A DNA stretch of 64,000 nucleotides from the NCBI RefSeq assembly GCF_017357525.1, contig NZ_CP036172.1, forward strand, positions 1,338,561 through 1,402,560. The letters run 5' to 3'. Origin of the DNA: Methanofollis aquaemaris (lineage in GTDB: Archaea > Halobacteriota > Methanomicrobia > Methanomicrobiales > Methanofollaceae). The notes beneath the pieces are model-generated. The model searched no databases. It was given only the letters and a program-made list of their open reading frames with translations, and was not told where the DNA came from. The translations under genes and the position numbers were made by a program. Shown here in pieces: positions 20,179-45,634 of the stretch. Position 1 is the first letter of the stretch. Each line of letters starts with the position of its first letter.

Positions 20179-20251
20179 AGCCCGGTAGTGTAGCGGTCAA
20201 TCATGGGGGACTCTGGATCCCCCGACAGCAGTTCGAATCTGCTCCGGGCTA
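20179..20251 (+). tRNA. tRNA-Gln (CTG anticodon)
   Basis: The acceptor arms AGCCCGG and CCGGGCT pair over 7 bp with an A discriminator. The anticodon stem GGGGA/TCCCC carries the loop CTCTGGA, giving anticodon CTG. The T arm is AGCAG-TTCGAAT-CTGCT. No intron is seen. Confidence 0.95.
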
Positions 20252-20270: not shown

Positions 20271-21125
20271 ATGCTTGAGCCGGTGCTATCGTCAGGCATG
20301 AAACGGCCGTACCTGGTCGGGGCCGGCATCCGCTCCGACGACGAGAAGACCTTCCCGGCCCTGGCAGCGATGTACCACACGGGCGAGATCGACCACATCC
20401 AGGTCCAGATAAACCCCGAAGATCAGCAGACCTTCAAACGGCACATCGAGACGATCGCTGCAGGCGGGGTGAAGGTCGTCGTCCACGCCCCCCACCACGG
20501 CCACGGCCTCAACCCCTGCGCACCGACCGCCTACGAGACCTGGTCAGAGGTCGAAGCGCGGGCCTGGACCGAACTCGCCCTCGCAGAGACCGCCGAGGCC
20601 GCGGATCTCACCGGCGCGGAGACGATCGTCCTCCACACCGGACGCTACCTGCCGGGCAGAGAAGAAGAAGCGGTGGCCACCTTCGAGACCTTCCTCGACG
20701 AGTTCTTCGACCCACGGTTTGTCCTCGAAAACCTCCCCTCCGTCTACGCCGACTACCCCCTCCTCGGCAACACCGCCGACGAACTCAAGAGCCTCGGGGG
20801 CGGGCGGATACGCGGCTACTGCCTCGACTTCGCCCACCTCTTCTGCACGGCAAATTATCTCGGGGTTCCCTACGCCGACCTCCTCGCCCCCTTCGCCGAC
20901 CTCCCCCTCCTCCTCTTCCACCTCTCCAACAGCAGGCGGGGTTCGATCACCGACGAACACCTCGCCCTCGACCACCCGGAGGGGGGCCTCAACTTCGCAG
21001 AGGTCGTCCCCTTCATCGCCGCGCACCCGACGATCGAGACAAGCCTGGAGTACAAGGAGAACGATCCGGCAGTCTACGTGGCGCAGCTCAAGGCCTTCGA
21101 CGCGCTCTACCGGGAACATCTCTGA
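20271..21125 (+). CDS. Xylose isomerase-like TIM-barrel protein (sugar phosphate isomerase/epimerase family)
   Basis: The 284-residue protein has the pattern of the AP-endonuclease-2/xylose-isomerase TIM barrel. Metal-ligand-like residues occur on successive strands: VVVHAPHHGHG, IVLHTGRYLPG, FVLENLPSVY, YCLDFAHLF, LLFHLSNSRRG and ETSLEYKEN. Proteins of this fold act as sugar isomerases, epimerases or AP endonucleases, so the substrate cannot be named. The ATG at 20271 comes only 19 nt after tRNA-Gln; an in-frame ATG at 20298 (MKRPYLVG) is an alternative start with a weak upstream TCAGG. It probably shares the tRNA promoter or has its own very short one. Confidence 0.7.
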   Translation: MLEPVLSSGMKRPYLVGAGIRSDDEKTFPALAAMYHTGEIDHIQVQINPEDQQTFKRHIETIAAGGVKVVVHAPHHGHGLNPCAPTAYETWSEVEARAWTELALAETAEAADLTGAETIVLHTGRYLPGREEEAVATFETFLDEFFDPRFVLENLPSVYADYPLLGNTADELKSLGGGRIRGYCLDFAHLFCTANYLGVPYADLLAPFADLPLLLFHLSNSRRGSITDEHLALDHPEGGLNFAEVVPFIAAHPTIETSLEYKENDPAVYVAQLKAFDALYREHL

Positions 21126-21190
21126 GAACGAAAAATCAGTTGCGTATAAAATCTTGATCGCTCTCCTCCCGACAGGGGAGCGGGCAGAAA

Positions 21191-21260
21191 CCGGGGCATT
21201 CTGTCGTCCCCGGCGCGAGACAACGGCGAAGGTGTTGCGATGGGGATCGCACGTCGGACC
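21191..21260 (+). repeat. Dispersed intergenic repeat, partial copy I
   Basis: CCCCGGCGCGAGACAACGGCG, then GAAGGTGTTGCGAT and CGCACGTCGGACC, match the right half of the copy at 45353-45591. It lies between two convergent 3' ends. Confidence 0.65.
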
Positions 21261-21304
21261 ATCACGGGGATTGATCGACGGGTGTGAGAACGCAGGGGAT
21301 GAGA

Positions 21305-21486
21305 TCAGAACAGCCGGCCGTCTTCTCTGAGCCCCGCGATGTGGAACTCGATTGCCTCGCGCATCCGCGCATCCGCTCCTCCGCCTCCTCCATGCTCGCC
21401 CCCGCGACAACACATCCCGGAAGGTCAGGGGAATATGCCGAATAGTTCCCGTCGGCCTTTTCGACGATAACAGAAAACTGATCCAT
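21305..21486 (-). pseudogene. HicB-family antitoxin-like gene, frameshifted by an 8-bp tandem duplication
   Basis: The frame opens with MDQFSVIVEKADGNYSAYSP then DLPGCVVAGASMEEAEERMR, a clear HicB/UPF0150 domain. The sequence GCGCATCC then occurs twice in tandem on the plus strand (21359-21366 and 21367-21374). Removing one copy restores EAIEFHIAGLREDGRLF and a stop at 21305, the usual HicB ending; with both copies the frame runs on into unrelated sequence. HicB proteins normally neutralise the HicA mRNA interferase, but no hicA is next to this gene, and many archaeal HicB homologues are solitary. The 3' end converges on the isomerase-like gene. It is either a recent pseudogene, a slippage-variable gene or a sequence error. 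Confidence 0.8.
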
Positions 21487-21529: not shown

Positions 21530-22258
21530 TCAGGCCAGGAAGGCCGCGAGCACCCCGCTGAGGAAGACCCCGTCGAAGGTGCCCGCACCCCCGATGCTCA
21601 CCATCGGAGCGCCCAGTTCACCAAGCCGTCTGAGGTTGAGGAGGTCGGCACCGATGAGCGTCCCGAGCGTCCCCGAGATATAGGCGATCACCGGCGCGGC
21701 GATCACCGCCGCCTCGCCCCCGCCCACAAAGAGCGAGAGGACAAGGGCGACGATGAGGGCGGCCAGTGGCGGGACGAAGAAGGGCGTGGCGATCCCGAGG
21801 CCGGGCACCGGACGGGCCACCCGATGCGTGATCAGGGCAACGATCAGCACCCCGACCAGAGCAAGGAAAAAGACCGTGGTCCCGCCCGGGATCAGCAGCG
21901 CACGGCCCAGGAGATAGACCGAGATGAAGAGAGGGATCAGCGCCCCGCCGAGATTGATCGCCACCGTCGTCTCGGGCGCGACCTCCGGTATCCGGTAGAC
22001 CCACCCGTAGAAGGGGCTGTAGGTCTTCTCCATCCGCACCGGTCCGCCGGTCTTGAGCGTGGTGAGCGGGATGTTCACCAGGCTCCCGACCAGCGTGAAG
22101 ATGAGGATGAGGAACACCGTGCCCGCCGAGAAACCGAGTTTGGCAAAGGCCGAACCGATGATGCTGAGGAAGAGGAACGGGATCAGGAAGAGGAGTACAA
22201 GGAAGAGAAAACCGATCATCAGCAGGCTGAACGGATTGAAGAAACACCTGCGGGCCAT
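21530..22258 (-). CDS. DUF1614 integral membrane protein
   Basis: The 242-residue product has about seven hydrophobic segments and the conserved C-terminal block GTLGTLIGADLLNL then SIGGAGTFDGVFLSGVLAA, typical of DUF1614 proteins of methanogens. Function is unknown. A second DUF1614 gene is at 33197 and shares this block almost exactly. It starts 22 nt downstream of the fibrillarin stop on the same strand, so it is probably part of the nop5-flpA transcript, without an obvious functional tie. Confidence 0.8.
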   Translation of the reverse strand: MARRCFFNPFSLLMIGFLFLVLLFLIPFLFLSIIGSAFAKLGFSAGTVFLILIFTLVGSLVNIPLTTLKTGGPVRMEKTYSPFYGWVYRIPEVAPETTVAINLGGALIPLFISVYLLGRALLIPGGTTVFFLALVGVLIVALITHRVARPVPGLGIATPFFVPPLAALIVALVLSLFVGGGEAAVIAAPVIAYISGTLGTLIGADLLNLRRLGELGAPMVSIGGAGTFDGVFLSGVLAAFLA

Positions 22259-34580: not shown

Positions 34581-34812
34581 TCTGTTGAATTCGGCATGAC
34601 CCCCGAGTTCAAGCATACGTGATGAATATCTCTCGTTGCAGTTCTCCTGAGTGCAGAGGGATACTTCATTCCTCTCCTCGCAACAGGGCACCTGAAGGAT
34701 ACTGTTCAATTGCTGCCCCCCGGTTATCTTCATCCATGGGGGGTCCGAGGGGCAACGCCCCCCGGTGCGAGACGGCGGTGAAGATTCTACGATCGGGGCG
34801 GCACGTCTGATC
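34581..34812 (+). repeat. Dispersed intergenic repeat, long copy E
   Basis: The copy starts TCTGTTGAATTCGGCATGAC, continues through a GATGAATATCTC segment and ACCTGAAGGATACTGTTCAA, and ends with the core TTATCTTCATCC, GGGGTCCGAGGGGCAACGCC, GGCGGTGAAGATTC and GGGGCGGCACGTCTGATC. It aligns with 45353-45591 over its whole length. It lies between convergent genes. The remainder of 34499-34910 has no gene. Confidence 0.85.
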
Positions 34813-34910
34813 TTCCGCGTCCGGCGCCTTCCAGTGATGGATGATATGAAATTCCAGCAGGAGGAACCCAAAAGAAGAGCGGATGATTTACCCCGGCCGG
34901 GGCGCTGTGC

Positions 34911-45352: not shown

Positions 45353-45591
45353 TTTGAATCAGGCATGAGCCGATAGCATACCTCAGGCATACACGATGAA
45401 AATCTCATGCCGCAGATCTCCGGAGCATGGAAGGATCGATCCTTGATCCTTCCCCCTGGAACAGGACAAATGGTAGAGACGCTGTTCCATCGCCGCCCCC
45501 CCTATCTTCACCGTGGGGGGTTCCGGGGGGCGCTTGCCCCCCGGCGCGAGATTGCGGTGAAGATTTTGCGATAGGGGCGGCACGTCTGATC
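45353..45591 (+). repeat. Dispersed intergenic repeat, long copy F
   Basis: The copy starts TTTGAATCAGGCATGAGCCG, has CCTCAGGCATACACGATGAA, ATCTCCGGAGC and GAACAGGACAAATGG, and ends with a self-complementary part. GCCGCCCCCCCTATCTTCACC near 45492 pairs with GGTGAAGATTTTGCGATAGG then GGCGGC near 45556-45580, enclosing the GGGGGGCGCTTGCCCCCC core. It ends CACGTCTGATC. It follows the rbcL terminator. Confidence 0.85.
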
Positions 45592-45634
45592 ATCATACCT
45601 TCGCAGCCGCTCGCACCGGGGACAGAGCTCCCCC

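Follow-up and report, generated by a model that had tools for sequence, protein, structure and literature searches.

The closest described counterparts of the locus reported here are the short HicB-like antitoxins (PF15919) of the hicAB modules of Methanomicrobiales and the orphan antitoxin genes, which stand alone without a toxin gene. For Methanosarcina barkeri, solitary hicB genes are reported in the available text of PMC10865869, which also mentions truncated hicB pseudogenes as a possibility, and orphan antitoxins are abundant in Klebsiella, where they possibly come from degrading pairs (available text of PMC7192599). The literature listings searched contained no paper on the locus itself, which lies in a 64,000-nucleotide stretch of the Methanofollis aquaemaris genome (NZ_CP036172.1, positions 1,338,561 to 1,402,560; hereafter the window). 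The window gene resembles the PF15919 antitoxins of Methanomicrobiales in that its residues 1-40 and the segment EAIEFHIAGLREDG align with HicB proteins of about 70 aa, such as that of the sister genome G004; it differs from them in that its frame is broken by an 8-bp duplication, its 3' end is missing and no hicA adjoins it. It resembles the orphan antitoxin genes in the absence of a toxin gene, but the antitoxin that it encodes is no longer intact. We consider a decaying orphan HicB antitoxin pseudogene, that is an ordinary dead gene, to be the best reading of the locus, with a probability of about 0.87.

A tandem duplication and a missing 3' end in one HicB-like gene

Two exact and adjacent copies of GCGCATCC are found at positions 21359-21366 and 21367-21374, as the original prediction had stated, and the period-8 identity runs 1 base before and 2 bases after this doublet, which gives a 19-base tract (Table 1). 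Set against 60 first-order Markov sequences as long as the window, an exact 8-mer doublet alone is unremarkable, because four period-8 identity runs of at least 8 were observed and 1.08 are expected; for runs of at least 11, one was observed against an expected mean of 0.017. Given this longer tract and the reading frames, the repeat is real.

The repeat is placed after codon 40 of a minus-strand gene whose ATG, GA-rich stretch before the ATG and residues 1-40 are all intact, and therefore a short product could still be made. Residues 5-40 match PF15919 (HicB_lk_antitox) at 22.1 bits, which is below the curated cut-off of 27, so that by this profile the frame is not an intact HicB-like antitoxin; an NCBIfam search returned no match to the window protein, to the HicB of G004 or to a HicA. 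Beyond the repeat, EAIEFHIAGLREDG matches the relatives in another frame, in agreement with the predicted change of frame within the HicB helix. When one repeat copy is discounted this second frame has 57 residues and stops at 21305, and the span originally singled out (21305-21486) runs from this stop to the ATG.

The same prediction held that deleting one copy restores the full C terminus and its stop, and here it did not stand. DNA similarity to the nearest relatives ends at positions 213-215 of the minus-strand query (window 21316-21318), after the REDG codons. Relatives continue beyond REDG with about 16 more residues that include a final strand-like part (SSAIYVAV in many of them); the window has only RLF and a stop. 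Because RLF and the stop replace the C-terminal end of the relatives, the full C terminus is still not restored once one copy is discounted: the last 12-13 residues or so are absent (57 residues vs 69-72 as a rule), the C-terminal strand region is missing and the gene is cut short at its 3' end besides carrying the duplication. The gene thus has no open frame of about 70 aa through helix and C-terminal strand region, as an intact HicB would have, and loss of function, which had also been proposed, is supported as a reading of the frame-shifted gene.

Table 1. Coordinates of the HicB-like gene, its parts and its neighbours in the window
Feature	Position	Strand	Remarks
HicB-like reading frame as it stands, 74 aa	21262..21486	-	ATG at 21486, 74 codons, end at 21262; residues 1-40 HicB-like, 41-74 out of frame
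Period-8 tract, 2.4 units	21358-21376	.	19 bases; holds both GCGCATCC copies
HicB helix continuation EAIEFHIAGLREDG in the other frame	21317..21358	-	translation and alignment to relatives
End of second frame, RLF and stop	21305..21316	-	homology to relatives ends at about 21316-21318
Copy of dispersed non-coding repeat, downstream of the gene	21144..21266	-	overlaps last codons of out-of-frame tail
DUF1614 gene (PF07758), directly upstream of the HicB-like gene	21530..22258	-	profile match
Xylose isomerase-like TIM-barrel gene (PF01261), convergent neighbour	20271..21125	+	profile match

Relatives of the gene and the missing hicA partner

Twelve genomes of the genus were compared, including that of the window (G000). 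The HicB subfamily is present in eight of them (G000, G001, G003, G004, G005, G006, G008 and G010), the other four showing only remote HicB matches of 41-42% identity. The closest copy is that of G004, an open frame of 70 aa with 78-80% identity over the first 40-41 residues. Open 70-aa frames are found in five of the eight copies (G001, G003, G004, G005 and G006) and the remaining three are broken, each by a different lesion: the duplication in G000, and changes at other places in G008 and G010. A full HicA adjoins hicB in two copies (G003 and G006), only the C-terminal part of HicA lies beside hicB in G004 and G010, and no HicA match was found at the hicB loci of G001, G005, G008 and G000. 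The same hicAB type thus occurs within one genus as a full pair, as a hicB that lacks a complete toxin gene and as hicB copies broken by three unrelated lesions, and provides a small, clear example of a toxin-antitoxin module disappearing.

At the level of the order, the G004 protein has a match at E <= 1e-8 in 78 of the 150 genomes sampled, many of the weaker matches among these 78 being other HicB types; many of the best matches reach residue 69 of the G004 protein at 70-90% identity. A scan of named genomes with the window protein yielded 345 confirmed loci, of which 80 were kept, from Methanoculleus, Methanogenium, Methanolinea and many bacteria; these 80 were selected with peptide patterns derived from the window protein itself, a choice that favours relatives of its N-terminal half. 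Their best matches all end at query residues 36-47, and in 71 at residue 39 or 40, that is at the repeat. Frames read from the matched start have 69-81 residues in 72 loci; among the other eight, two have no stop in the stretch read, one starts at a stop and five have 50-66 residues. In codons 31-55, period-8 runs of at least 8 are absent from all 80, and DNA alignments to many relatives open an 8-base gap at the repeat. Since the HicB helix continues in the other frame and the repeat is found in no relative (0/80), the frameshift is private and derived. In agreement with this, both copies together with a conserved long frame, the pattern that the original prediction had named as speaking against it, were not seen among the 80 named relatives.

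The intact relatives are HicB-like proteins of about 70 aa, which score 39-42 bits against PF15919, above the cut-off, in all three tested. A search of solved structures with the HicB of G004 gave weak matches only, mostly HicB antitoxins, the best being 4p78_A (E 0.0012). A conserved 74-aa protein was considered and rejected, as the sole match beyond query residue 47 among the 80 loci, L146, is a normal gene read in the wrong frame.

A full HicA is present at most 150 bp upstream in 49 of the 80 relatives; it is partial in 11 and absent in 18, and too little DNA is available in two. The genome search for a matching hicA that had been proposed returned none adjacent to the window gene (no PF07927 match at E <= 1 near G000:C1:1359.9 kb), which places the gene outside the hicAB modules, where hicA lies next to hicB. 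No hicA of this type was found elsewhere in the genome either, where two HicAs were compared with the HicA of G003, the remaining PF07927 matches lying below the cut-off: the best PF07927 match, at 176686, lies beside a different HicB and is 35% identical, and the second, at 842 kb, shows no significant match. Outside the window, we also observed a second decayed-looking HicB/HicA pair at G000:C1:2176171-2176504, with partial PF15919 and split PF07927 matches.

Origin of the duplication and alternative readings

Selection was estimated against six relatives separately for the two sides of the repeat, with 40 codons preceding it and 14 following it. Before the repeat, dN is 0.13-0.24 and dS about 0.9-1.3; dN/dS is only 0.11-0.25, and therefore most of the history of the N-terminal part was constrained. 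After the repeat, dN is 0.03-0.13 and dS about 0.9-1.7 (one value saturated), and this low dN relative to dS indicates that the other frame, over these 14 codons, was constrained until recently. Both parts thus behaved as protein-coding sequence during most of their evolution and the frame break is therefore recent relative to the divergence. Nonsynonymous changes in the N-terminal part number 11-12 in five of the six comparisons and 19 in the remaining one, and the relative pairs L098-L035 and L104-L035 differ by 5 and 6 in the same part; these counts give a hint that constraint may have been relaxed in the lineage of the window.

The window and L104 have CGC at a codon that reads CAC in five of the eight aligned relatives and is different again in another two. 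This CGC gives GCG-GCG, a 3-base microhomology 8 bases apart, and the present run of 11 corresponds to 8 + 3. Microhomologies of 3 bases are of the kind used by slippage or microhomology repair. The duplication probably arose by slippage at this microhomology, and the signature of slippage that had first been claimed is supported for the 8-bp tandem duplication, with a putative mechanism read from the sequence.

The recognisable homology of the gene, combined with inactivating changes (duplication and 3' loss) that are absent in the aligned intact relatives, places it among pseudogenes. We propose that only hicB would have been left at this intergenic spot from a hicAB module, of a type that related methanogens commonly carry, as do other prokaryotes, and that, having no toxin to hold in check, hicB would have lost constraint as selection disappeared. 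Its 3' end would have been cut off and, separately, the 8-bp duplication, produced by replication slippage or microhomology repair, would have shifted the frame after codon 40, an order of the two lesions that we infer.

The truncated and frame-shifted product, with 40 HicB-like residues and a new tail, could instead be functional, for instance as an anti-addiction decoy that binds the HicA toxins of incoming elements. The start codon and residues 1-40 have been kept, and roles of this sort have been put forward for orphan antitoxins, which are common (available text of PMC7192599); however, the tail has no relative except the wrong-frame reading of L146 and overlaps the dispersed repeat, and the product lacks half of the helix as well as the C-terminal strand region, which leaves this function very unlikely.

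Reversible phase variation, raised in the original prediction, would have the antitoxin switched on and off by gain and loss of the 8-bp unit. The tract contains a perfect direct repeat of 11 bases with a spacing of 8, and a repeat of this kind can in principle lose a unit by slippage; as in phase-variable genes with short tandem repeats, the unit is not a multiple of three and lies inside a coding frame. Unlike in those genes, the tract has only 2.4 units, no relative shows another unit number (0/80 with the repeat at this site, a comparison across species with one genome per species) and the gene is truncated as well, its protein ending 12-13 residues early even in the other frame. Because of the few units, the lack of the repeat in relatives, the 3' truncation and the absence of a hicA partner, we reject phase variation, which we judge highly improbable. 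Before an out-of-frame tandem repeat from one genome is taken for phase variation, the remainder of the gene should be compared with its relatives. It is likewise scarcely probable that what remains of the orphan hicB is retained for a role, either as a slippage switch of low frequency or as a short decoy binding incoming HicA toxins, and that the population alternates between two forms, of which the two-unit state is one.

Finally, the duplication is known from one assembly of the species, but an assembly or sequencing error is most improbable, since this assembly is one contig and 99.76% complete, base-calling errors do not typically take the form of an exact 8-base tandem insertion, and the separate 3' truncation shows decay anyway.

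Surroundings of the probable pseudogene

The DUF1614 gene occupies the spot where the hicB relatives often have hicA, and its orthologs (73-93% identity) are found in nine other genomes of the genus. None of the eight sister genomes with DNA between the DUF1614 and TIM-barrel genes has hicB in this gap, the sequence of the ninth (G008) ending too early, and the hicB copies of these eight, where present, lie elsewhere; an ancestral hicB at the window site was rejected on these grounds. The neighbourhoods of hicAB differ among G003, G006, G004 and the group of G001, G005 and G008, as expected of a mobile module. Inspection by eye of the gap in G010 (locus L086) revealed an apparent tail of a RelE-like toxin gene, which suggests that the gap may collect toxin-antitoxin remnants; the TIM-barrel gene of this locus also looks broken. 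Besides, a tRNA gene lies close to the TIM-barrel gene of the window, on the plus strand at 20179-20251 (Rfam tRNA, 57.7 bits).

The repeat downstream of the HicB-like gene is a modular, GC-rich, non-coding element with modules of about 70 bases, and further copies lie in the window at 34664-34815 and 45492-45602. A structured RNA was considered for the downstream copy and rejected (z = 0.07 for one fold; nothing in Rfam). With a 221-base G003 copy as query and 40 first-look candidates, of up to 407, scored per matching genome, we counted at least 47 matches in G000, at least 45 each in G003 and G006, and at least 41 in G007, 32 in G008, 29 in G001, 17 in G005 and 10 in G010; the same query gave none in G002, G004, G009 and G011. 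Many copies combine a G-run with a C-rich part and, by description, resemble the G-quadruplex motif that is reported to recur in Methanofollis and Methanoculleus (available text of PMC8044849).
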